Made by a program: the position numbers and the translations under genes. From the NCBI RefSeq assembly GCF_001440405.1, contig NZ_LLXX01000119.1, positions 158,692 to 222,691 on the forward strand: a stretch of DNA of 64,000 nucleotides, read 5' to 3'. The DNA is from Bradyrhizobium valentinum. Its GTDB lineage: Bacteria > Pseudomonadota > Alphaproteobacteria > Rhizobiales > Xanthobacteraceae. This document shows positions 25,805-39,179 of this stretch, piece after piece (the first letter of the stretch is position 1; the number at the start of each line of letters is the position of its first letter). The notes under the pieces are model-generated. The model saw only the letters and a list, made by a program, of their open reading frames with translations. It was not told the origin of the DNA and did no database searches.

Positions 25805-27073
25805 TTAACTCCTTGGCCGGAAATTCTCGATGAACCGCAGCATCACGCGCGCGCCGGCATCGGCGTCGGCGGCTTCGACATGCTCGGCTGGATTATGGCT
25901 GACGCCGCCGCGGCAGCGCACAAACAGCATGGCGACATCGGCAATGTCGATCATCGCCATGCCGTCATGCCCGGCCCCGCTCGGCAGTTCGAACACGCCA
26001 TAGCCTTCGGCCGCAACAGCTTCCGCCACCTGCGCTTTCAGCCATGGCGCGCAGGGCACGGTGCGGTTCTCGTGGGTGACGTCGATCTGCAGCGACAGCT
26101 CACGCCGTTTCGCGATCGCCTCGATCCGCTGCACGATTTCCGCGACGGCGTGTTTGCGGTGCGGATCGTCCGGCGCGCGAATGTCGAGCGTAAACGATAC
26201 CCGTCCCGGAATGACATTGGTCGCGCCGGGCATCGCCGTGATGACGCCGACGGTGCCGACCAGGCCTGCGCTATCCGCCTTGCAGAACTGCTCGACCGCC
26301 ACGATGCATTCGGCAGCGCCCGCCAGCGCGTCACGGCGCAGCGCCATCGGCACCGTGCCCGCATGGCCGGCCATGCCGGAGAGGTTTGCGGCCAGCCGCG
26401 TGGCGCCTGATATTGCCGTCACCACGCCGACCGGAAGGTTCTGTTGCTCGAGCACCGGCCCCTGCTCGATGTGCAGTTCGACATAGGCATGCAGCTCGCG
26501 CCGCGCCCGCGCCGCTGCGCCGATTTGTTCGGGATCGAGCCCGAACTGCACCATCGCCTCGCGCATGGTGAGGCCGCTCGCATCGCGTACGTTGAGCACG
26601 CTTTCATCAAAAGTTCCGGCGATGGCCCGGCTGCCGAGCAGCGTGGAGGCAAAACGCACGCCCTCTTCGTCGGCAAAGCCTATCACTTCGATCGCAAACG
26701 GCGGCCGCATGCCGCGCCGGTTCAGATCGGCGACGCAGGCAATCGCCGTGATCACACCGAGCGGCCCGTCCCATTTGCCGGCGTCGCGCACGGTGTCGTA
26801 ATGCGAGCCGAGCATCAGGCACGGCAGCCCCGGACGGTCGCCCTCATAGCGGCCGCTGACATTGCCGATGGCGTCGAGATGCGCGGCCATGCCAGCGTCG
26901 CGCATCCACGACAGAATGAGATCCGCGGCAATGCGATGTTCGGGTGAAAGGAAGATCCGAGCCAGATGCTCGCCAGTCTCGGAAATCGCCCCGAGCTGAT
27001 TGATCCGGCTTACGATTTCGTCGCCAAGCCGTGATCGTGTCGTCGCGCCGATGGCCGCCTCCGTCCTGCTCAT
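25805..27073 (-). CDS. allC: Allantoate amidohydrolase / Zn-dependent carbamoylase family
   Basis: A 422-residue M20-family metalloenzyme. Metal and catalytic motifs are all visible: GSHYDTVRDAGKWDG, FADEEGVRF, HIEQGPVLEQ, a dimerisation-domain GMAGHAGTVPM, and PSGAGHDGMAMIDI with the last His. The start at 27073 (MSRTEAAIG) removes a 102-residue shadow extension. The family includes N-carbamoyl-L-amino-acid hydrolases, beta-ureidopropionase and allantoate amidohydrolase; its place 52 bp downstream of the uricase gene makes allantoate (giving ureidoglycine/ureidoglycolate, ammonia and CO2) the likely substrate. Confidence 0.88.
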   Translation of the reverse strand: MSRTEAAIGATTRSRLGDEIVSRINQLGAISETGEHLARIFLSPEHRIAADLILSWMRDAGMAAHLDAIGNVSGRYEGDRPGLPCLMLGSHYDTVRDAGKWDGPLGVITAIACVADLNRRGMRPPFAIEVIGFADEEGVRFASTLLGSRAIAGTFDESVLNVRDASGLTMREAMVQFGLDPEQIGAAARARRELHAYVELHIEQGPVLEQQNLPVGVVTAISGATRLAANLSGMAGHAGTVPMALRRDALAGAAECIVAVEQFCKADSAGLVGTVGVITAMPGATNVIPGRVSFTLDIRAPDDPHRKHAVAEIVQRIEAIAKRRELSLQIDVTHENRTVPCAPWLKAQVAEAVAAEGYGVFELPSGAGHDGMAMIDIADVAMLFVRCRGGVSHNPAEHVEAADADAGARVMLRFIENFRPRS

Positions 27074-27125
27074 GCCGTTCCAGTAAGCGCACTTCGATCG
27101 GCGCTTCGACGTGTGGGGGTGCCTT

Positions 27126-27968
27126 TTAGCCCCTTCCCACGGTGCACTCAATCTGGCCGTGGGGCTCGTCGGTCGGCAGGAAAACGTCATTATTGTTATC
27201 CAGCCCGAACGCCGAAAGATTAATCGGAATGAAGTGCATGTTTGGGCAGGCCATGCTGATTTCCGCAATCTCCGGCACTGACGCCAGGGCCGCCTCGCCC
27301 ATCCGGTACAGGCTGTCCTGCACGCTCTTGCTGTAGGTCGTACCGAACACTTCGAGCAGGGTGTCGAGAATCCTCGCATTGGCCGCGGGATAGCTCGACG
27401 GCTTCGCCGACCATTTCCAGGACGCCACCATGCTGGTTGCGCACATCCGGTCGGCGGTCGGCGGCAGCGTCGTGTAGCGATCCCTCGGATAATTCTCCCA
27501 TCCGGACTGCGTCGACTTCATGAAAGCAAAACCATCGATGCCCGACGTCAATGCCGGCGGTCCCCCGCGGGTGGCGGCAACGTCGACGAACGGCTCGCCG
27601 TTGCTGTCGAGCACGAAGCTATGGGGATGCGGCTTGCCGCCAAAATTCAGGCGGCGCCATTTGGTCTCATGCGCTGATATCGCAACCGAGGCGATTTGCG
27701 GATAGGTGTCGAGATATCTATTCGCCAGCACCTGGCAGAATTCCTCGGCGCACAGCGCGGTGTTTTCGCGGGCGACGACATTGACGATGTTCTTGATCGT
27801 ATCCGTCGCCACCGAGGTGGAATTGTCGGCATGGGTATAGGCGCGGGCAAAGTCGCCCTCGATCATCGCCTTGACGCTGAGCTGGCTGACTTCGTGTTGC
27901 TCGCCGTCCCGGTGAATCCGCATGACCCGGACGCGACCCTTACCATATCTGTTCCTGATCAGCGGCAT
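27126..27968 (-). CDS. uox: Urate oxidase (uricase, cofactor-independent)
   Basis: A 280-residue uricase, close to the normal ~290-300. It oxidises urate to 5-hydroxyisourate. Recognisable: N-terminal NRYGKGRVRVMRIHRDG, the active-site strand NSTSVATDTIKNIVNVVA (Thr-Asp plus Lys), SHEF-like YRVDR pattern replaced by ALTSGIDGFAFMKSTQSGWENYPRDRYTTLP, and the C-terminal NNNDVFLPTDEPHGQIE. The start at 27968 (MPLIRNRYGKG) is used; an ATG 18 bp upstream is possible. First gene of a short leftward unit with allC; divergent from a purine permease with a 185-bp control region. Confidence 0.96.
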   Translation of the reverse strand: MPLIRNRYGKGRVRVMRIHRDGEQHEVSQLSVKAMIEGDFARAYTHADNSTSVATDTIKNIVNVVARENTALCAEEFCQVLANRYLDTYPQIASVAISAHETKWRRLNFGGKPHPHSFVLDSNGEPFVDVAATRGGPPALTSGIDGFAFMKSTQSGWENYPRDRYTTLPPTADRMCATSMVASWKWSAKPSSYPAANARILDTLLEVFGTTYSKSVQDSLYRMGEAALASVPEIAEISMACPNMHFIPINLSAFGLDNNNDVFLPTDEPHGQIECTVGRG

Positions 27969-28153
27969 CCGAGGCCTCCCGTTCAACCTGCAATTTGCGG
28001 GGATTACGACCGCCCGCTATGGTTCAATATTGAGCAACCTTCGTGCCACAGGGCAAGGCTTGCGGGGATGAGCATCTGGCACGAGCCTTGTATCGGTTCA
28101 AAACAGGTATCGGCTCAAACAGGCTTGGGGCCTGCAGCAGGGGGAATCCGAAT

Positions 28154-29548
28154 ATGAGCAGCGAAATCCATCCGGTCGACCAGATTTTGCCGACGCCGCG
28201 GTTGCTGGCGCTCGGTCTGCAGCATGTGCTGGTGATGTACGCCGGCGCGGTTGCCGTGCCCCTGATCATCGGCCGGGCGCTGAAGCTGCCGCCCGAGGAC
28301 GTCGCCTTCCTGATCAGCGCGGATTTGTTCGCGTGCGGGATCGCCACACTGGTGCAGTGTATCGGTTTCCCCGGGGTCGGTATCAGGCTGCCGGTGATGA
28401 TGGGGGTCACCTTTGCCTCCGTCGGCCCGATGCTGTCGATGGCAGCAGTGCCCGACATCGGCCTGCTCGGCATCTACGGCTCGGTGATATCGGCGGGCTT
28501 ATTTGCGATCCTGGCTGCACCTTTCGTGAGCCGATTACTGCCGCTGTTTCCTCCCGTCGTGACTGGGACCATTATCCTGGTGATCGGCATTTCCTTGATG
28601 CGGGTCGGCATCAACTGGGCCGGCGGGGGCCTGCCGACCTTGACCAAGATCGTCGACGGCGTACCGGGCGCCTTTCCCAATCCCGGCTACGGCCAGTTGC
28701 AGGGCCTTGGGCTTGCGCTGTTCGTGCTGCTGGTGATCCTTGGCCTGATCAAATGGGGCTCCGGCTTCGTCGCCAATGTCGCCGTGCTGCTCGGCATCGT
28801 CGCAGGCGCCGTCCTGGCCGCCGCGCTTGGTGTCATGCATTTCGAGAAGGTCGCCGCAGCGCCGTGGGCTGCGATCGTGCTGCCGCTGCATTTCGGGCTG
28901 CCGAAATTTCAACTCATCCCGATCCTCACCATGTGCATCGTGATGATCGTGGTGATGATCGAATCGCTTGGCATGTTCCTCGCGCTGGGCGAGATCACCG
29001 GCAAGACCGTCAGCCGCGACGCGCTGACCCGCGGCTTGCGGGCCGACGGTGTCGGCACGTTTCTGGGCGGCCTGTTCAACACCTTTCCCTATACGTCGTT
29101 CTCGCAGAATGTCGGCCTCGTCGGTGTCACCGGCGTGCGATCACGCTGGGTCACAATCGCCGGCGGCGGCATCCTGTTGCTGCTCGGGCTCATGCCCAAG
29201 ATGGCGGCACTGGTCGAGGCCGTGCCGCTGGTGGTGCTCGGCGGCGCCGGCCTCGTGATGTTCGGCATGGTGGCAGCCACCGGCGCGCGGATCCTTACCG
29301 CGGTGGACTTCAAGAACAACCGCTACAATCTGTTCATCGTCGCGATATCCGTCGGCTTCGGCATGATCCCGCTGGTATCTCCGAACTTCTTCAAGAACCT
29401 GCCGCATGACCTGCACCCGTTGCTCGAGTCCGGTATCCTGCTCAGCGCGCTCGTTGCCGTCGCGCTGAACGCCTTCTTCAACGGTGTCGGCAGCAAGGCC
29501 GCCGCCGAAGCCGGCGCAGCGACGGCCGCGGCATCGGCGACGCACTAG
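28154..29548 (+). CDS. NCS2 purine/uric acid permease
   Basis: A 464-residue nucleobase:cation symporter. It carries the family layout with about 14 spans: QHVLVMYAGAVAVPLIIG in span 1, the LPVMMGVTF segment, and a signature region PYTSFSQNVGLVGVTGVRSR near residue 317 whose Gln-Asn are substrate contacts in UraA/UapA-like proteins. The start at 28154 (MSSEIHPVDQ) follows a GGGGAATCC box. Divergent from uricase, so xanthine or uric acid import for the purine pathway is the best reading. Confidence 0.93.
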   Translation: MSSEIHPVDQILPTPRLLALGLQHVLVMYAGAVAVPLIIGRALKLPPEDVAFLISADLFACGIATLVQCIGFPGVGIRLPVMMGVTFASVGPMLSMAAVPDIGLLGIYGSVISAGLFAILAAPFVSRLLPLFPPVVTGTIILVIGISLMRVGINWAGGGLPTLTKIVDGVPGAFPNPGYGQLQGLGLALFVLLVILGLIKWGSGFVANVAVLLGIVAGAVLAAALGVMHFEKVAAAPWAAIVLPLHFGLPKFQLIPILTMCIVMIVVMIESLGMFLALGEITGKTVSRDALTRGLRADGVGTFLGGLFNTFPYTSFSQNVGLVGVTGVRSRWVTIAGGGILLLLGLMPKMAALVEAVPLVVLGGAGLVMFGMVAATGARILTAVDFKNNRYNLFIVAISVGFGMIPLVSPNFFKNLPHDLHPLLESGILLSALVAVALNAFFNGVGSKAAAEAGAATAAASATH

Positions 29549-29571
29549 CCTTGGCGGGCTCGGCTTGGCGA

Positions 29572-30453
29572 TCAACTCCCGCGGTAGGTCGCGTAGCCCC
29601 AGGGCGTGACCAATAGCGGCACATGTAGATGGCCTTCGGGATCGCTTACCGAAAAGCGCAGGGGAATTCGATCGAGAAACGGCGGATCGGACATCGGCAC
29701 GCCGCGATCGGCAAAATAGGCGCCGACGTTAAACGTCAGCTCGTAGCGGCCGATCGGCACCGGCCGGCCGCCGATCAGCGGCTGATCGGTGCGGCCGTCC
29801 TGGTTCGTCGTCGCGCGCGCCACCACGCGGGGCTCGCCGAGATCGGACAGTTCGGTTAGTTCAACCGATATTCCCGCGGCGGGTCGGCCGCTATGGGTGT
29901 CGAGTACATGGGTCGACAGACGGCCATGCACGGGCAGCTTGTCGTCGGAGGCGACGAGCTGATCGAGCCGCAACGCAGCAATCCGGCAGATCTCTACAAT
30001 CGACGCCTGCGCCTCGGTCTTGGCATCGTTCGGCAAACGGCGTTCGAAATCACGCAGAACGGAATCGCGGGTGTGGCGGCGAACGCAGACAATATAGGGA
30101 AAGCCGAACTTGGAACGGTAGGCGCTGTTGGCGCGCTCGAACGCTTCGTATTCGGCGTCCGACAGCCGATCGAGGCCGGCGCTGTTTTGCTCGGCGCCAG
30201 ATTCCGCGGTGAGACTTGCAGCGCGCTGGGTCTTGCTGGCGAGATCGGGATGCGCCCTGATCAACGCCAGCCGCAATTCGTCGGGAGCGCGCTCGACCGC
30301 CGCCGTCATCGCCGCCAATAGCTGCCCGGCCCCCGCAAACGGTCGCAATGCGGCCGCTTGCCCGGCAACCCAGGGTGAATACTCGAACACATTTGCCAGC
30401 GCGGCGACGAAATCATCCTTGCTGCAAACGTTTAAGTCGGAAAGCTTCAACAT
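29572..30453 (-). CDS. uraD-uraH: Bifunctional OHCU decarboxylase - HIU hydrolase (UraD-UraH fusion)
   Basis: A 293-residue two-domain protein. Residues 1-165 match 2-oxo-4-hydroxy-4-carboxy-5-ureidoimidazoline decarboxylase (IRAHPDLASKTQ with the catalytic His, TAESGAEQNSAGLDRLS with the Glu, SKFGFPYIVCVRRH). Residues 175-293 match 5-hydroxyisourate hydrolase (GRLSTHVLDTHSGRPA, QDGRTDQPL, and the diagnostic YRGS C-terminus). Together they convert the uricase product to S-allantoin. The physical order is opposite to the reaction order. It is convergent with the permease and upstream neighbour puuE is in the same direction (12 bp). Confidence 0.95.
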   Translation of the reverse strand: MLKLSDLNVCSKDDFVAALANVFEYSPWVAGQAAALRPFAGAGQLLAAMTAAVERAPDELRLALIRAHPDLASKTQRAASLTAESGAEQNSAGLDRLSDAEYEAFERANSAYRSKFGFPYIVCVRRHTRDSVLRDFERRLPNDAKTEAQASIVEICRIAALRLDQLVASDDKLPVHGRLSTHVLDTHSGRPAAGISVELTELSDLGEPRVVARATTNQDGRTDQPLIGGRPVPIGRYELTFNVGAYFADRGVPMSDPPFLDRIPLRFSVSDPEGHLHVPLLVTPWGYATYRGS

Positions 30454-30465
30454 CGCTTTCGCGCC

Positions 30466-31404
30466 TCACCCGATATCGAAGGCGTTTTCGGCGAGATGCG
30501 CCAGATTGGCGTGCCAGTGCTGCGCGATCTGCAGCCGTGTCGGCACCCAGACGCGCTCGTGCTGTCCGATATAGTCGAGGAAGCGGATCAGCGCCGCCGC
30601 CCGACCGGGCCGGCCCACGACCCGGCAATGCAGCCCGACCGACATCATCTTCGGCGCGGTCTCGCCTTCCTTGTAAAGGACGTCAAAGCTGTCCTTGAGG
30701 TAGGTGAAGAATTCATCCCCGCCGCCAAAGCCCTGCGCGTTGACAAAACGCATGTCGTTGGCATCGAGCGTATAGGGAATGACCAGATGCGGCTTTGAGC
30801 CGCGCGACTTGATCCAGTACGGCAGGTCGTCGGCATAGGAGTCGCAGAGATAAAGCAATCCGCCGGCTTCCATCAGCAGCCGCAACGTATTGATCGAGGA
30901 GCGTCCGGTGTACCAGCCGAGCGGACGCTGCCCCGTCGCCTCGGTGTGGACGCGGATCGCCGCTGCGATCTCGGTCCGCTCCTCGTTCTCCGACATATCC
31001 TTGTGCTCGATCCATCGGAGGCTGTGGCTGGCGATGTCCCAGCCGGCCTCCTTCATGGCGGCGACCACATCGGGATTTCGCTTCAACGCCTTCGCGACGC
31101 CAAACACGGTGGCCGGCAGATTGCGTTCGGTGAAGACCCTCCACAGCCGCCAGAAGCCGGCGCGCGACCCATATTCGAACATTGACTCGATATTGGCGTG
31201 GCGCTGTCCGGGCCAGGGCTGCGCGCCCAGCACGTCGGACAAAAAAGCTTCCGAGGCACGGTCGCCGTCGAGAATATTGTTCTCGCCGCCTTCCTCGAAA
31301 TTCACCACGAACTGGACGGCAACACGTGCGTCGCCGGGCCACTTGGGATCGGGCGGGTTGCGCCCGTAGCCACGAAAGTCGCGCGGGTAGACCGGCGCCG
31401 CCAT
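30466..31404 (-). CDS. puuE: Allantoinase PuuE (polysaccharide-deacetylase fold)
   Basis: A 312-residue NodB-like barrel protein. It starts MAAPVYPRDFRGYGRNPPDPKWP, a strongly conserved opening of PuuE, followed by NFEEGGENNILDGD, ESMFEYGSRAGFWRLWRVF, ASHSLRWIEH and GWYTGRSSINTLRLL. This metal-independent type hydrolyses allantoin to allantoate. Start 31404 is preferred to 31446. The downstream uraD-uraH follows after 12 bp and the DUF3830 gene ends 2 bp before it, so the three form one leftward transcript. Confidence 0.95.
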   Translation of the reverse strand: MAAPVYPRDFRGYGRNPPDPKWPGDARVAVQFVVNFEEGGENNILDGDRASEAFLSDVLGAQPWPGQRHANIESMFEYGSRAGFWRLWRVFTERNLPATVFGVAKALKRNPDVVAAMKEAGWDIASHSLRWIEHKDMSENEERTEIAAAIRVHTEATGQRPLGWYTGRSSINTLRLLMEAGGLLYLCDSYADDLPYWIKSRGSKPHLVIPYTLDANDMRFVNAQGFGGGDEFFTYLKDSFDVLYKEGETAPKMMSVGLHCRVVGRPGRAAALIRFLDYIGQHERVWVPTRLQIAQHWHANLAHLAENAFDIG

Positions 31405-31406
31405 GC

Positions 31407-31820
31407 TCACACTTCCTCGAAGCGGATCTTCTGCGCGCCCTTCCACAGCACGGCCTTGCCGAATGCAGTCAGGTTCTCCAGCCCCGAGGTCAGGGTGATG
31501 AAATGATTACCGGCAAGCTGGCCCATCTTACTCGCGAAATGCACGCCGCCATAGGCGAGCAGGATTTCGGTTTCGCTGATGCCGCCGGGATAGAGAATAA
31601 TCTGGCCGGGCGCGGGATAACTGGTGTGGTTCTCGTAGGAGACGCCGAAATCGAGATCGCCGAGCGGCATCCAGACACCCTCGCCGCTCCAGCGGACATG
31701 GATCGCCTGGCTCTCGAACGGCATCGCCTTGCGAAACGCTGCTACCGTTTTGGGCGCCAGTTGCTCCTCGAAACGGGCCTGGAAGGTGAATTCACCGGCA
31801 CGGACAATCAGTTGGCTCAT
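31407..31820 (-). CDS. DUF3830 family protein
   Basis: A 137-residue cytosolic protein of the cyclophilin-like DUF3830 family, recognisable from FQARFEEQLAPKTVAAFRKAMPFESQAIHVRWSGEGVWMPLG, ENHTSYPAPGQIILYPGG and EILLAYGGVHFASKMGQLAGNHF. It has no signal peptide or membrane span. It leads the operon DUF3830-puuE-uraD/uraH with a 2-bp gap to puuE, so it very likely participates in allantoin metabolism or handling, but its reaction is unknown. Confidence 0.85.
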   Translation of the reverse strand: MSQLIVRAGEFTFQARFEEQLAPKTVAAFRKAMPFESQAIHVRWSGEGVWMPLGDLDFGVSYENHTSYPAPGQIILYPGGISETEILLAYGGVHFASKMGQLAGNHFITLTSGLENLTAFGKAVLWKGAQKIRFEEV

Positions 31821-33219: not shown

Positions 33220-34011
33220 TCACGCTTCACCACGCCAGAACGCAGTCTGCAAGGGAAGCTGGTGTTTGATCATCGCGACGCCATCCACGACCTTCAGGCC
33301 GCGCGCGGCGCAGGCTTGCATGAACTCGGTCCGGCGAGCGGCGATGATGTCGAACACGGCGCAATCATCTGGCAACCGCGCGGGATTCATCGGCAGGGCG
33401 TCCGTCTCGCGAAGCCCGAGCGAGGTGGCGTTGACCAGGAGGCCGGCATCGTCGAATCTTTCGTCCAGGCTGATTTCGAGATCGGCGAAACGGCTGCGGA
33501 GTTTTGCGGCCAGGATTTCGACCGGGCCGGCCGCTTCATTCAGGATCCGCAGCCGCTTTAGGCCAGAGGCAGCGAGCGCATGACAGATCGCCCGGCCCGC
33601 TCCGCCCGCCCCGATCACGACGCAGCGACGGTCCGGATCGAAAACCTTTTCCTCGCGTGCTGCATTCAGAAAACCGCCGCCATCGAAGGACTCGCCGACC
33701 AGCCGTCCGCCGGCCTCAATCCGGATTGTGTTGACCACGCCTTCGAATTCAGCGGCAGGGCCGACCGCGTCGCACAATTCGAACGCCGCCGGCTTGTGCG
33801 GCATGGTGAGGTTGAAGCCGGCGACACTCGGCGATTTCGCCAGCGTGCGGATTGTCTCTGCCAGATGCTCCGGCGCGATATCGAGCGGCACCATGTGCCA
33901 GTCCAGTCCGTTGCCCTGGAAATAGGGCGTATAGTGGCGCGGCGCGCCGACATGGCCGGCCGGATGGGCAAAGATGAATACAAATCGTGAAGCACCGGTC
34001 GGAAGCCGCAT
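33220..34011 (-). CDS. Shikimate dehydrogenase-like oxidoreductase, altered substrate pocket
   Basis: A 263-residue AroE-fold protein. Present are NLTMPHKP (equivalents of E. coli Asn59, Thr61 and catalytic Lys65), VVNTIRI (Asn86), FDGGGFLNA (Asp102), the NADP loop VIGAGGAGRAICHAL and HQLPLQTAFWRG (Gln244). The N-terminal Ser-x-Ser that binds the shikimate carboxylate (HSLSP in AroE) reads HVGAPR here, so both serines are missing. Its start lies 5 bp after the stop of an ABC permease in a sugar-type transport operon, so oxidation of a neutral polyol-like compound is more likely than a role in aromatic amino-acid synthesis. Confidence 0.88.
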   Translation of the reverse strand: MRLPTGASRFVFIFAHPAGHVGAPRHYTPYFQGNGLDWHMVPLDIAPEHLAETIRTLAKSPSVAGFNLTMPHKPAAFELCDAVGPAAEFEGVVNTIRIEAGGRLVGESFDGGGFLNAAREEKVFDPDRRCVVIGAGGAGRAICHALAASGLKRLRILNEAAGPVEILAAKLRSRFADLEISLDERFDDAGLLVNATSLGLRETDALPMNPARLPDDCAVFDIIAARRTEFMQACAARGLKVVDGVAMIKHQLPLQTAFWRGEA

Positions 34012-34016
34012 CACCC

Positions 34017-34856
34017 TCACCCCTTCACGGCGCCCGCCGTCAGCCCGCTCACCAGATAGCGGCGCACGGCGAGCGAGAAAATCAGGACCGGCGCCATCAC
34101 CAGCGAGCCGCCCGCGGCGATCTTGCCCCACTCCCACCCCTCGTAGTTCATGAAGTTGACCACGGCGACCGGCGCGGTGCGCGCATTGGTCCGCGTCAGG
34201 ATCAGCGCAAAGAAAAAGTCGTTCCAGGCGTAGAGGAAGCACAGGATCGCGGTGGCGGCGACGCCGGGCGTGACCATCGGCAGCACGATCTGGAGGAAGA
34301 CGACCCGTGTCGACGCGCCGTCGACCAGCGCCGCCTCTTCCAGCGATGGCGGCACCGTCTCGAAGAACGGCTGCATCATCCAGATCACGAGCGGCAGGTT
34401 GAAGCTGGTATAGACCAGCACCAGCCCGGTGACGGTGTCGAGCAGTCCGATCCAGCGATAGAACAGGAAGAATGGAATCGTGAATGCGATCGGCGGCGCC
34501 ATCCGCGTCACCAGGATCGCAAAGCTCAGCGCGTGCTTGCCCCGGCCTGCCCATCGCGACAGCGCGTAGGCCGCGGGTACGCCTAGAATGAGCGCCAGCG
34601 CGGTGGAGAACGAGGCGCTCATCAGGCTGTTGACGAAGGAGGCCGGGAACGCGCCCTGCCAGAGCGAGGCGTAATTTTGCAGCGTCGGCGTGAAGATCAA
34701 AGGCGGCGGAAACTGCAGGATCAGGTCGTTGGATTTGAAGCTCATCTGCAAGAGCCAGAGGAACGGCGACAGCAGCACGATCAGCGTCACGCCGATCGCC
34801 ACAAGCCGGCGAACGCTGGCCGAACGGCGGATAGGTCCGCTCATGCCGCCACTCAT
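34017..34856 (-). CDS. ABC sugar transporter permease, MalG type
   Basis: A 279-residue permease of the carbohydrate uptake family 1. Start 34856 overlaps the stop of the preceding permease gene (ATGA) and a second ATG 12 bp on is also possible. It has an N-terminal span, QMSFKSNDLILQFPPPLIFTPTLQNYASLW in the periplasmic loop and the EAA loop LEEAALVDGASTRVVFLQIVLPMVTPG, which contacts the ATPase. C-terminal residues AVRRYLVSGLTAGAVKG are the standard MalG-like ending. Confidence 0.95.
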   Translation of the reverse strand: MSGGMSGPIRRSASVRRLVAIGVTLIVLLSPFLWLLQMSFKSNDLILQFPPPLIFTPTLQNYASLWQGAFPASFVNSLMSASFSTALALILGVPAAYALSRWAGRGKHALSFAILVTRMAPPIAFTIPFFLFYRWIGLLDTVTGLVLVYTSFNLPLVIWMMQPFFETVPPSLEEAALVDGASTRVVFLQIVLPMVTPGVAATAILCFLYAWNDFFFALILTRTNARTAPVAVVNFMNYEGWEWGKIAAGGSLVMAPVLIFSLAVRRYLVSGLTAGAVKG

Positions 34857-35752
34857 GCCATGGCCTCCCGGCGGCGGCCCATCCACACCACGCCGAGACT
34901 GACGGCGACGACGAGCAACAGCATCACGATGGTGACCGAACTGGAATAGCCGATCTCGTTGAAATCGAAGGCCAGCAAATAAGCATAATAGTTCGTCACC
35001 TCGGTGACGCTGCCCGGCCCGCCGCCGGTCAAGAGGAATACCAGCGGAAACGCCTTGACGCTGTCGATCAGGCGAAACATGCCCGAGATCACCAGGATCG
35101 GCGTTATGAAAGGCAGCGTGATGTAGAAGAAGATCTGCAGTCGGTTGGCGCCGTCGACCAGCGCCGCTTCGGAAAACTCGTCCGGAATGGTCTGCAGCGC
35201 GGCCAGCACCATCAGGAAGGTGAAGGGAAGCCATTCCCAGGTGTCGGCGATGATGATCGCAGTCAGGGCAAAATCGACGCTGGAGGTCAACGACGGCATC
35301 GCGATGTTGAGCAGGCCCGCGGCGTAATAGAGCGGGCTGATGTCGGGCGTATAGATCAGCTTCCAGATGATCGCCACGACGATCGGCGGCAGCACCATCG
35401 GGATCAGGAAAAAGGTGCGGGCGAATTCGACAACGCGCGACTGCGTGTGCAGCAGGAGCGCCAGCAGCATGCCGAGCAGAACCTGAAACAACACGCCCCA
35501 GAACGACAGCTTGGCCTGCACCCACAGCGAATTGACAAAGCGCGGGTCGCCCGGCAGCAGGCGATAGTTGCGCAAGGGCGAGCTGAAATCGGTCGACGAG
35601 CCGGGATTGACCAACTGAAACGGCGTCAGGCTGGTCATGACCAGATAGATCGCGGGCAGACCCGCGATCATGAACAGCACGATCAGGCTCGGCGCCAGCG
35701 CGAAAGCGTTGAAGCGGCGGCGCTCGGCGTCAACCAGTCCTTTTCCGCTCAA
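34853..35752 (-). CDS. ABC sugar transporter permease, MalF type
   Basis: A 299-residue permease. The start is uncertain: no ATG or GTG lies near the beginning; the TTG at 35752 overlaps the binding-protein stop as TTGA and yields SGKGLVDAERRRFNAFALAPSL leading into span 1. Typical content is LPAIYLVMTSLTPFQL, FSEAALVDGANRLQIFFYITLPFITPI (EAA loop) and FLLTGGGPGSVTEVTNYYAY. The frame stays open to 36100, but that part is the shadow of the binding protein. Confidence 0.93.
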   Translation of the reverse strand: MSGKGLVDAERRRFNAFALAPSLIVLFMIAGLPAIYLVMTSLTPFQLVNPGSSTDFSSPLRNYRLLPGDPRFVNSLWVQAKLSFWGVLFQVLLGMLLALLLHTQSRVVEFARTFFLIPMVLPPIVVAIIWKLIYTPDISPLYYAAGLLNIAMPSLTSSVDFALTAIIIADTWEWLPFTFLMVLAALQTIPDEFSEAALVDGANRLQIFFYITLPFITPILVISGMFRLIDSVKAFPLVFLLTGGGPGSVTEVTNYYAYLLAFDFNEIGYSSSVTIVMLLLVVAVSLGVVWMGRRREAMA

Positions 35753-37113
35753 AGCGCAGTCCCGGCCCGGCGCATATTGGCAATCGCCTGCTCCTGCGCG
35801 GCGTTCATCGCCGCCGGCGCGGCGAGTTGCCCGGTCGCCACCTGTTCGAACGCCTTGTTGAGGACATCGCCGACGATCGGGAATTCCTTCACGGTGCGAT
35901 AGGCCATGTAGTTCTCGCCCTTGGCCGGCAGCCCCAGCACTTCGAGATAGAGCGCGCCGAGGTCCTGGCCATTCACCGTGTTGAGCTTGCGATATTCCTC
36001 GCTCTCGATAACGGATTTGCGGCAGACCGAGGAATGGCCGTGCTCCTTGACCAGCCGCATCGAGATTTCCGGGCTGAGCGCCCATTTGATAAACTCCCAC
36101 GCCGCCTTCTTGTTCTTGGCGTTCTTGGGAATGCCGAGCCCCTGGCTGTTGGCGGCCGGGAAATCACGCACCGGGCCGGCTGGCATCCGCACGACGCGCG
36201 AGGTGTTTTTCACCTTGCTATCGCCGGACATCAGGATCGGCGTGATCCACGCGCTGGAATGGATGAAGATGTTGGAGCGGCCGGTCAGCAGCGCCTGGCG
36301 CGCCTGATCCTCGGTATAGGTCACCACGCCCTTCGGCGCGTAATTCTTCAACAGGTTCGCGTAGAATTCGATCGCCTGGATCGCTTCCGGCGAATTCAGC
36401 GCCGGCATGATGTCGGTGGGCGGATTGCGGAAGATGTTGCCGCCAAAACCCTGGATGTAAGGCGGCAGGCACCAGTGATGGAGCTGGAAGCTCACGATGC
36501 CGGTGACGTTCTCGACGCCGTTGATCTCGGCGCAGACCTGTTGCAGTTCGGCAAAAGTCTTCGGAATCTTGAGGCCTTTTTTCTCCATCAGATCCATGCG
36601 GGACAGGCCCATCACCATGGCGCCGCCTTCCCATGAATAGCCGTAGGTGGCGCCCTTGGCGTCGCGGTAAGGCACTTGCGCGCCTTCGACGAAATCCTTC
36701 GGATTCCATTGCGCCGGCGTCAGGCTGGGATCGCCGGTGAATTCATCGAGGTTGGCGAGCAGTCCGGCCGCGACCCAGCGCGCGGCGAGAATGAAGGTGA
36801 CGTTGACGAAGTCGAAGGCCGAGCCGCCCGACGACAGTTCGAGATTGGCCTGCTGGTTGTAGACCGGAAACGCCGAGAGCTGCAGATCGACCTTCATGCC
36901 GGTCTGCGCCTCGAACTCCGGAATGTAGTTCTGCAGCAGGGTGAAGAAGCGGTGCTGGAAGGACGCGCCGCGCAACGTGACGCCGGCAAAGGGTTTGGTC
37001 TGTGCGATGACCGGCATCGGGAAGGCCGCCGCGCCGAGCGTGGCGGCGCCTGCCTGAAGCAGCTTCCGGCGGCTGACGGCTGCAGATTTATCGCTCGAAT
37101 TCTTCTTGATCAT
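35749..37113 (-). CDS. ABC sugar transporter substrate-binding protein
   Basis: A 454-residue family 1 solute receptor. The N-terminus has a twin-arginine signal (SRRKLLQAGAATLG) with cleavage near VIAQT. The mature protein begins KPFAGVTLRGASFQHRFFTLLQNYIPEFEAQTG and contains the usual FDFVNVTFILAARW and FIKWALSPE segments. First gene of the operon receptor-MalF-MalG-AroE-like; no ATP-binding gene is adjacent. The divergent GntR gene starts about 150 bp upstream. Confidence 0.94.
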   Translation of the reverse strand: MIKKNSSDKSAAVSRRKLLQAGAATLGAAAFPMPVIAQTKPFAGVTLRGASFQHRFFTLLQNYIPEFEAQTGMKVDLQLSAFPVYNQQANLELSSGGSAFDFVNVTFILAARWVAAGLLANLDEFTGDPSLTPAQWNPKDFVEGAQVPYRDAKGATYGYSWEGGAMVMGLSRMDLMEKKGLKIPKTFAELQQVCAEINGVENVTGIVSFQLHHWCLPPYIQGFGGNIFRNPPTDIMPALNSPEAIQAIEFYANLLKNYAPKGVVTYTEDQARQALLTGRSNIFIHSSAWITPILMSGDSKVKNTSRVVRMPAGPVRDFPAANSQGLGIPKNAKNKKAAWEFIKWALSPEISMRLVKEHGHSSVCRKSVIESEEYRKLNTVNGQDLGALYLEVLGLPAKGENYMAYRTVKEFPIVGDVLNKAFEQVATGQLAAPAAMNAAQEQAIANMRRAGTAL

Positions 37114-37199
37114 GGCGCCCTCCCTGACGAGCTTTTCGACAATATGACCGACATAAAATAGACTGTCAAAAGGAGGCTTCTCTCAGATCGGCTATTTTT

Positions 37200-37215
37200 A
37201 TGGTACCAATTGACA
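37200..37215. promoter_or_regulatory. Putative GntR operator overlapping a -35-like box
   Basis: ATGGTACCAAT (37200-37210) contains the perfect palindrome TGGTACCA and half-sites of the GGT/ACC type used by FadR-subfamily regulators. A -35-like TTGACA follows at 37210-37215. It lies between the divergent binding-protein gene and the GntR gene. The 11-mer TACCAATTGAC (37204-37214) reappears at 56007-56017 in the other GntR-controlled region of this window. Confidence 0.55.
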
Positions 37216-37266
37216 TCGCATCGCAATAAAGCAGACAATATTATTTCAAGGCTTGAGGGTCGCGAT

Positions 37267-38025
37267 TTGCCCAGGGACGTCGAACTCCGCCAACCCAACA
37301 CCCACGTTGCGCGCGAAATCGCAAAACTCATCGTCTCCGGCGTATGGCACGAAGGTCGGACGCTGCCGCGGGAGATCGAACTGGCCTCGCAATTTGGAGT
37401 CAGCCGCACCTCGATCCGGGAATCGCTGTCCGTCCTCAAGGCGAAAGGCCTGATCGCGGCGCGGCAGAAGGCCGGCACGCATGTGCGCGAGCGGATCAAC
37501 TGGAACATGCTGGATGCTGAGCTTCTGGAGTGGACATGGGCGGAACGTCCCACGGAAGAGTTCGCCCGGCAGCTCACGCAGGTGCGGCGCATCGTCGAGC
37601 CGGAGGCCTGCGCGATCTGCGCCGAGCGCGGCTCCGATGCCGACCTCGCCCGCATCGAACGGGCCTATCGCGAGATGGACGCCGCCGGCATGGACAGCCG
37701 CGCTTATTCCGAGCCTGATCTGCGCTTCCACCGCGGCATCCTGACGGCGACCGGCAATGATTTTCTGGTCGCCTTCGGCGCCACCGTCGAAGCGGCGCTG
37801 CGGATGTCGTTCGATCTCTCGACGCTGAACCCGGGTGCGCCGCGCAAGAGCCTGCCCTATCACCGTGCCATCCTCGACGAGATCTGGGCGCGCAATCCCG
37901 ATGGCGCGCGGCGCGCGATGCATCGCCTGATGGACCTGACCGAGCGCAATATCACCTCGGCGCTGTCACGCCGGCATGGCGAAGCGATGGCGGCAGCGGA
38001 TGCCAGCCGTGAGCACGACGCGTAA
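37267..38025 (+). CDS. GntR-family (FadR subfamily) regulator
   Basis: About 252 residues. N-terminal winged helix: HVAREIAKLIVSGVWHEGRTLPREIELASQFGVSRTSIRESLSVLKAKGLI; C-terminal FCD domain with RRIVEPEACAICAER, FHRGILTATGN and YHRAILDEIWARNPDGA (metal-ligand type Asp/His residues). The frame is open from a TTG at 37210, but that TTG overlaps a TTGACA -35-like box; the TTG at 37267 follows GAGGG with 7-bp spacing and gives a normal family N-terminus. It probably represses the divergent sugar transport operon, released by the imported ligand. Confidence 0.9.
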   Translation: MPRDVELRQPNTHVAREIAKLIVSGVWHEGRTLPREIELASQFGVSRTSIRESLSVLKAKGLIAARQKAGTHVRERINWNMLDAELLEWTWAERPTEEFARQLTQVRRIVEPEACAICAERGSDADLARIERAYREMDAAGMDSRAYSEPDLRFHRGILTATGNDFLVAFGATVEAALRMSFDLSTLNPGAPRKSLPYHRAILDEIWARNPDGARRAMHRLMDLTERNITSALSRRHGEAMAAADASREHDA

Positions 38026-38105: not shown

Positions 38106-39179
38106 ATGCCCGCAAGAATCATTGGAATGATCGGCACCCAGCAGGAAGGCGTCGCGGTTCATCTCATCAAGGGACAGATATCCCGTGAATGGGTGATCGA
38201 CTTCACCCGCCTGCACGAGCAGTGGAACTATGATTCTGTTCTCGTGGGATATTACGCGTCCGCCGCCGAAGGTTTTGCGATCGCGCTCTATGCCGCCAAC
38301 CATACCGAGCTGATCAAGTTCCTGATCGCGCACCGGCCGGGCTCGGTGGCGCCGGCGCTGGCGGCGCGGCAGGTCGCGACCTTCGACCAGCTCACGCAGG
38401 GGCGGATGTCGCTGCATATCATCGCCGGTACCAGCGACCAGGATCAGGCCAGCGAAGGCGATTTCCTGCCCAAGAATGACCGCTATCGCCGCGCCGGCGA
38501 ATATCTGGAGGTGATGCGGAAGCTCTGGACCAGCGACAGCCCGATCGATCACAGGGGCGAGTTCTACCGGGTTGAGGGTGGTTTCTCCGACATCAAGCCG
38601 TATCAGCAGCCTTACCCCTCCCTCTTCTTCGGCGGCTCATCCGAGGGTGCGCTGGAGATGGGCGCGAAGCATTGCGACGTGTTTGCGATCTTCGGCGAGC
38701 CGCTCAAGGAGACACGGGAGCGGGTCCAGGATTTCCGCCGGCGCGCGGCGGCCTTCGGGCGCAATATCGGCTTCAACATGTCGCTGCGGCCTATCATGGC
38801 GGACAGCGAAGGCGCGGCATGGGACAAAGCGAACGCCCTGCTGGCGGATGTCGAGCGCAAGACCGGCGCCGCGCCGCAGCCGACCAACCATTCCGCCGAA
38901 CGGCTGCTCGGATACGCCGCACGCGGCGACGTTCACGACGAGCGGCTGTGGATGGGCATCGCGCGCGCCACCGGCGCACCCGGCAATACGTCATGCCTGG
39001 TCGGAACGCCCGAGCAGATCGCGGCGGCGGTGCTGGAATATTACCGGCTCGGCATTCATTCCTTCCTGCTGCGCGGTTTCGAAAATCCGCATGACACCAT
39101 GGCGATCGGCCGCGACTTGATTCCGCTCATCAAGCAAGGCGCGCTTGCGATCGACCGGCAGGCCGAAGCGGCCGAATAG
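38106..39179 (+). CDS. LLM-class flavin-dependent monooxygenase (SsuD-like)
   Basis: A 357-residue F420/FMN TIM-barrel enzyme. It resembles alkanesulfonate monooxygenase in WNYDSVLVGYYASAAEG, HRPGSVAPALAARQVATFDQLTQGRMSLHIIAGTSDQDQASEGD, RAGEYLEVMRKLWTSDSPIDHRGEFY and PSLFFGGSSEGALEMG. FMNH2 must come from a separate reductase, which is not adjacent. Co-directional with an MDR-type oxidoreductase 71 bp downstream. Desulfonation or oxidation of an organosulfur or related compound is a family-based guess. Confidence 0.88.
   Translation: MPARIIGMIGTQQEGVAVHLIKGQISREWVIDFTRLHEQWNYDSVLVGYYASAAEGFAIALYAANHTELIKFLIAHRPGSVAPALAARQVATFDQLTQGRMSLHIIAGTSDQDQASEGDFLPKNDRYRRAGEYLEVMRKLWTSDSPIDHRGEFYRVEGGFSDIKPYQQPYPSLFFGGSSEGALEMGAKHCDVFAIFGEPLKETRERVQDFRRRAAAFGRNIGFNMSLRPIMADSEGAAWDKANALLADVERKTGAAPQPTNHSAERLLGYAARGDVHDERLWMGIARATGAPGNTSCLVGTPEQIAAAVLEYYRLGIHSFLLRGFENPHDTMAIGRDLIPLIKQGALAIDRQAEAAE

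Follow-up and report, generated by a model that had tools for sequence, protein, structure and literature searches.

A shikimate dehydrogenase-family protein with altered recognition sites in a sugar-type importer operon of Bradyrhizobium valentinum

Which compound is acted on by a protein that resembles shikimate dehydrogenase (AroE) and is encoded at the end of a sugar-type ABC transporter operon in Bradyrhizobium valentinum? The window, which is the whole stretch of 64,000 nucleotides that was analysed, contains this operon at 33220-37113, the exact span of its four genes from the stop of the aroE-like gene to the start of the gene of the extracellular solute-binding protein (SBP). All four genes are on the minus strand in the order SBP-MalF-MalG-AroE-like. 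The SBP (35749..37113, minus strand) has a Tat-like RRKLL leader and is recognised by PF01547 (107 vs 26 bits), and its nearest solved structures are 5iai, MalE3, and the sorbitol binder 4rya (E about 1e-12 to 1e-15). The MalF-type permease (34853..35752, minus strand, 299 aa) is an open frame named from its operon position, and its TTG start overlaps the SBP stop. The MalG-type permease (34017..34856, minus strand) has an ATG that overlaps the malF stop and is best matched by NF040932 GlcU (106 bits) and next by MalG (101 bits), both under their own cut-offs. The AroE-like oxidoreductase (33220..34011, minus strand, 263 aa) comes last. Its mechanical open reading frame (33220-34554) is over-long, and homology places the probable start at ATG 34011, 5 bp past the malG stop. 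The GntR/FCD regulator (37210..38025, plus strand; PF00392 and PF07729) is divergent. These coordinates bear out the preliminary description, where the gene had been read as the last of a receptor-MalF-MalG operon with a divergent GntR. The operon contains no ATPase gene; five UgpC-type ATPases encoded elsewhere in the same genome exceed the curated cut-off and could energise the importer in trans.

The preliminary description had also stated that HSLSP of AroE has become HVGAP with the catalytic Lys/Asp and the amide residues kept, and this was reproduced in a 62-row family alignment. HVGAP stands in place of HSxSP with no Ser anywhere in the block, and the equivalents of Asn59, Thr61, Lys65, Asn86, Asp102, and Gln244 are present. 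No Ser is restored nearby by the alignment, and V-x-A is found in 38/38 orthologs of the genus (HVGAP in 29, HVAAP in 8, and HVSAP in 1). The Lys is likewise kept in 38/38, the Asp and Gln are kept in the nine clade rows and are invariant in a 57-row alignment, and the Asn59 equivalent is retained in 37/38 with Ser in the remaining ortholog. The combination of V-x-A-P and a retained Asn59 is specific to the clade, being absent from the other 53 of the 62 rows. A relative at 76% identity outside the set of 38 orthologs (L018) has an HVVAP block and Asp at the cofactor site; it adjoins another permease pair and a UgpC-type ATPase.

The NADP motif NRTxxR (NR[TS]xx[RK]) has become NEAAGP, where the NADP Arg is replaced by Glu, and NE is found in 38/38 genus orthologs. 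Arg150, Thr151, and Arg154 of E. coli AroE are associated with NADPH preference in the cited part of PMC7144000, therefore Glu at this position predicts NAD. The DxxYxP motif has become DIIAARR through a one-residue deletion and replacement of the conserved Tyr. FDIIA is present in 37/38 orthologs (35/36 and 2/2), the exception being the ortholog of genome G099 (L200), whose end is out of frame. The Arg pair is found in 34/36 orthologs, with His-Arg in one and one out of frame, and Arg-Arg is found in both further loci. This pair sits at the position of the cofactor-site Tyr of AroE and may bind an anionic group. Three predicted recognition features (Ser-x-Ser, the NADP motif, and the Tyr) are changed jointly and fixed across the clade, which makes the case stronger than it was in the preliminary description. 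Since dN/dS is 0.04-0.14 between the AroE-like gene and seven orthologs, the gene is conserved under purifying selection and is not decaying; the out-of-frame end in G099 (1/38 genomes) counts against conservation.

The protein belongs to the shikimate dehydrogenase family by its fold and by the PF08501 substrate-binding domain profile (58.7 vs 27 bits), with the C-terminal PF01488 at 21.3, under the 24.3 cut-off. None of the NCBIfam shikimate dehydrogenase cut-offs is passed (best NF001312 at 149 vs 295 bits; TIGR00507 at 128 vs 200), and those of the YdiB and QsuD quinate dehydrogenases are failed as well (61 vs 349 and 57 vs 515 bits). The host genome (8.8 Mb) has three PF08501 genes. A second aroE, the absence of which would have mattered for the preliminary description, is present: both other family members pass shikimate dehydrogenase cut-offs, L002 that of NF001312 (368 vs 295 bits) and L001 that of NF001319 (407 vs 252). 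The view that the window gene is not the housekeeping shikimate dehydrogenase is supported.

In an unrooted tree of 51 rows, seven orthologs are united in a clade of their own (100/100), whose branch is long at 1.1 changes per column. This clade stands between the RifI-like and xFKAP rows (98/95) and the canonical AroE and 5-ketofructose reductase (KFR)-like rows (100/99), so it is inside neither group. The position of the root would determine which of the two is the sister group. The rows exclude RifI2, KFR, YdiB, SdhL, and Ael1 themselves, and proxies were used for RifI2 (L145 and L088, which have RifI2 as best solved match) and for KFR (L101, which matches the 5-ketofructose reductase 7cok at 4e-106). 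The AroE-like protein represents a novel branch within a family already known, and not a new kind of system. No paper on the operon or the clade is among the literature matches listed.

The predicted structure of the AroE-like protein (pLDDT 95.3, pTM 0.91) has RifI2 of Pseudomonas putida (PDB 4k28) as its nearest fold (Z 33.4, rmsd 2.1, 259 aligned, 29% identity), which is also the top match in Foldseek. The following folds are 3tnl (Z 31.8) and then a tied group that includes KFR 7cok (Z 31.1). Within the shikimate dehydrogenase family, RifI2 represents the RifI class, which prefers NAD and has low shikimate activity. The protein could be a RifI2-like enzyme that uses NAD on a ring with a carboxylate (shikimate, quinate, aminoshikimate, or hydroxycyclohexane-carboxylate), with the transporter misjudged as sugar-specific. 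RifI2 is alike in fold, in its QVKSP block, where Val replaces the first Ser, and in its acidic cofactor residue, and, as the tree is unrooted, the RifI-like group could be the sister of the clade. However, RifI2 keeps the second Ser, whereas both Ser positions are lost in the AroE-like clade; RifI2 and the RifI-like rows are without the Asn59 equivalent that the clade keeps (37/38); and the RifI-like proxies and xFKAP form a group that leaves the clade out (98/95). The transporter type and the mutarotase and sulfatase genes described below also suggest a carbohydrate. We consider the carboxylated ring unlikely.

The loss of Ser-x-Ser by itself does not decide the substrate. Ser-x-Ser is also missing in the RifI-like, xFKAP, and KFR-like members of the 62-row alignment, and in one member of the canonical clade (L100) the first Ser is replaced by Val in an HVRSP block. 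The genome from which L100 comes (G054) carries a second family member. Going by these rows, the loss is widespread in the family and not special. RifI2 is said to have weak shikimate activity in work of 2013 by Peek. Since RifI2 lacks the first Ser and reportedly still acts on shikimate, the loss is no proof of a carboxylate-free substrate. The preliminary description was right on the lost Ser-x-Ser, but the carboxylate-free substrate that it derived from this does not follow from the loss alone.

A sugar-active member of the family is already known, namely KFR. In the cited part of PMC7954740, KFR reduces 5-ketofructose, a neutral keto-sugar, and this enzyme without Ser-x-Ser is a precedent for a sugar-active family member. 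The same part of that source gives KFR as using NADPH only and a KFR-similar protein of C. pasteurianum as inactive with 5-ketofructose. KFR (7cok/7col) resembles the AroE-like protein in its family fold (Z 31.1) and in lacking Ser-x-Ser, but differs in its xNPT block, its basic NR at the cofactor site, and its use of NADPH, and the KFR-like rows belong to the other clade (100/99). AroE shares the fold, the Lys/Asp catalytic pair, Asn86, Thr61, and Gln244 with the AroE-like protein, in which Ser-x-Ser, NRTxxR, and DxxYxP are all lost. YdiB and QsuD share the fold (Z about 28-31) and NAD use, which is predicted for the AroE-like protein, but their NCBIfam cut-offs are far above its scores. Promiscuous iminosugar formation by AroE and YdiB is described in the cited part of PMC9881201.

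AroE-like orthologs were identified in 38/265 genomes of the genus. Among 397 genomes of the order searched at 1e-35, orthologs occur only in five genomes of this genus, and no intermediate was found outside the genus, where the next best match is at 39% and all others are at or below this value. One contig scan for relatives favoured proteins that contain peptides like FNLTMPHK. A search with the SBP at 1e-110 matched 3/239 genomes of the order, all of this genus. Among the genus genomes the SBP is present in 51/265 (50 at 80% identity or more, and one, G087, at 51%). The cassette of transporter and GntR is present in 50/265 genus genomes, 38 of which have the dehydrogenase. Two layouts were identified. 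Layout A (22 loci including the window) has a divergent GntR, and 21 of its loci keep the aroE-like gene. Layout B (28 loci) has GntR first on the transporter strand and a divergent sulfatase, and 17 of its loci keep the gene.

The aroE-like gene is directly after malG in all 38 genomes that hold it, the window included, so the earlier proposal that the enzyme is tied to the transporter stands. The gene is missing from 12/50 cassettes (11/28 in layout B and 1/22 in layout A), so the transporter can do without the enzyme. In one such genome (G189, locus L241) a frame of nine codons lies after malG, ahead of the following gene, and ends in AFWRGRP, compared with AFWRGEA near the end of the AroE-like protein; this frame is likely an aroE deletion scar. 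Genome G115 (L209) has a match to only the first 53 AroE-like residues. No consistent replacement enzyme was found after malG in the aroE-less loci L201-L210 (10/11 of the layout-B cases) or in L242. One of these layout-B loci (L204) has an SDR-like open reading frame on the opposite strand. The missing genes without a consistent replacement, together with the reductive direction of KFR, would fit an enzyme with a dispensable side role, in which a keto- or dehydro-sugar by-product is reduced in the manner of KFR, outside the main catabolic step. However, the gene is under strong purifying selection where present and the predicted NAD preference fits oxidation, and we regard a side role as quite improbable.

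An operator-like site, TATGTCGGTCATA, is located near the SBP promoter (37143..37155, minus strand) and is identical in 22/22 layout-A loci. In the window it stands just past TTTTGACA in the gntR-SBP intergenic region, where it may coincide with part of a -10 element. A second operator-like site, TGTCTGCTTTATT (37225..37237, minus strand), is also identical in 22/22 layout-A loci. As this site falls within the listed gntR frame, the true GntR start is probably downstream of 37237. Layout B has the palindromic TATGTCTGACATA in 28/28 loci and a second, related site in 24/28. An operator-like site is common to both layouts, and GntR control of both is therefore suggested.

Two further genes travel with the cassette. 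The sulfatase is present at 28/50 cassette loci. A search at 1e-120 matched 31/265 genus genomes, and all 28 orthologs, defined by at least 87% identity, adjoin the cassette. The sulfatase has a CVPSR motif, no signal peptide was seen, and it reaches none of the curated cut-offs (as arylsulfatase, 309 vs 481 bits). Choline-sulfatase and phosphonate monoester hydrolase are among its relatives of solved structure, and the family is close to the latter. An aldose 1-epimerase (mutarotase) gene is present at 3/50 loci; in G091 and G030 it follows the aroE-like gene, and in G189 it follows malG. PF01263 was shown for the genes of G091 and G189, and that of G030 is 67% identical to that of G091. The mutarotase start overlaps the aroE-like stop as ATGA in G091 and lies two bases after it in G030. 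A search of the host genome at 1e-10, run without a positive control, gave no mutarotase match.

The sulfatase and the mutarotase point to a sugar, which may be sulfated in some strains. Since the mutarotase follows the cassette genes (3/50 loci), a reducing sugar is more likely than the cyclitol of the preliminary description. A cyclitol or polyol dehydrogenase, by which an inositol-type compound or an acyclic sugar alcohol is imported and then oxidised with NAD, would agree with the lost carboxylate site and with the weak similarity of the SBP to the sorbitol binder 4rya. However, a cyclitol or alditol needs no mutarotase, the gene that ends the operon at those three loci, and no inositol-catabolism gene was noticed among the neighbours read, which was not a systematic search. 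A cyclitol or polyol is rather unlikely, and a sugar substrate is better supported. Only the sulfatase (28/50) and the mutarotase (3/50) were found to travel with the cassette; no kinase, isomerase, or aldolase was seen to do so among the compared neighbours, so no full pathway is visible.

Our preferred reading, which we hold at about even confidence, is that this shikimate dehydrogenase branch, seen in this analysis only in Bradyrhizobium-like genomes, is an NAD(H) oxidoreductase of a neutral carbohydrate, most likely a pyranose or its keto form, that is imported by SBP-MalF-MalG with an ATPase in trans and is controlled by GntR. Lys73 and Asp110 would carry out the acid-base hydride-transfer chemistry of the family. 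Val and Ala in place of Ser-x-Ser would remove the carboxylate contact and line the pocket, and Glu in place of Arg150 would select NAD. Hydride would pass between NAD(H) and the imported sugar, at a secondary alcohol or a ketone of its ring. Some strains may import a sulfated form and desulfate it in the cytoplasm. More tentatively, the AroE fold may have been recruited separately in this clade to act on a neutral pyranose, as an NAD-dependent ring-alcohol or lactol dehydrogenase with CUT1-type import, with sulfated uptake and cytoplasmic desulfation in one lineage and a mutarotase-presented anomer in another.

The clade clearly illustrates a joint change of the substrate and cofactor recognition sites, with a dedicated importer and regulator alongside, and because these accompany the enzyme, the substrate should be findable by screening the binding protein. 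A sugar branch would be added to a family of biocatalytic interest, with an annotation guide for 38 genomes.

Two other neighbours were considered and rejected as indicators of the substrate. A gene of the mandelate-racemase family (at least 85% identity) is inside the fetched stretch in 23/28 layout-B loci and gave the idea of a sugar-acid dehydratase. This racemase-like gene is closest to mandelate racemase, is present in 114/233 genus genomes sampled, and belongs to the flanking chromosome. The gene past GntR (38106-39179) is SsuD-like (198 vs the 518 bits cut-off) and is found in the window and in 19 other layout-A loci. It had raised the idea of a sulfonate, and it occurs in 48/265 genus genomes, 28 of them without the aroE-like gene. 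It is directly by mscS or puuE in 10/10 cassette-less loci fetched (L211-L220) and is thus chromosomal flank; its place beside mscS or puuE where the cassette is absent shows the site of insertion.

The relative of the aroE-like protein in Bradyrhizobium LHD-71 (L018:1-16780) is 76% identical to it, and its gene is divergent from a neighbouring permease pair. This permease pair differs from that of the cassette and comes with a UgpC-type ATPase. Judging by the permeases and the ATPase, the locus is a second transporter pairing. The cassette in a record titled Frankia sp. RB7 (L015), which is probably misnamed or contaminated, encodes an aroE-like protein that is 82% identical. The ortholog of genome G099 (L200) is out of frame beyond approximately residue 213. 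A transporter that is ~50-58% identical to that of the cassette was identified at L243:8373-13794, where malG is followed at its 3' side by an ATPase-like frame and then by a Dak1-domain kinase gene that is split into two ORFs.

The cassette adjoins urate/allantoin degradation genes (window 25805-31446) that, as named by ORF reading, are allantoate amidohydrolase-like, uricase-like, xanthine/uracil permease-like, OHCU decarboxylase/HIUase-like, and PuuE-like.

The second aroE paralog of the same genome (L001:1342-2337) adjoins a LysR-like ORF. It keeps HSASP and has an acidic cofactor-site residue (FDTD); judging from its sequence, the enzyme is perhaps NAD-dependent. Other variants were identified in the SDH family. 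The group of L143, L088, L144, L150, L161, and L153 has x-F-K-A-P together with Leu in place of Asn59 (E. coli AroE numbering), and L088, the one member tested, is nearest to RifI2 of Pseudomonas putida. The AroE-like protein L100, which belongs to the canonical clade, exhibits HVRSP with Val in place of the first Ser, and its genome holds another SDH-family member.
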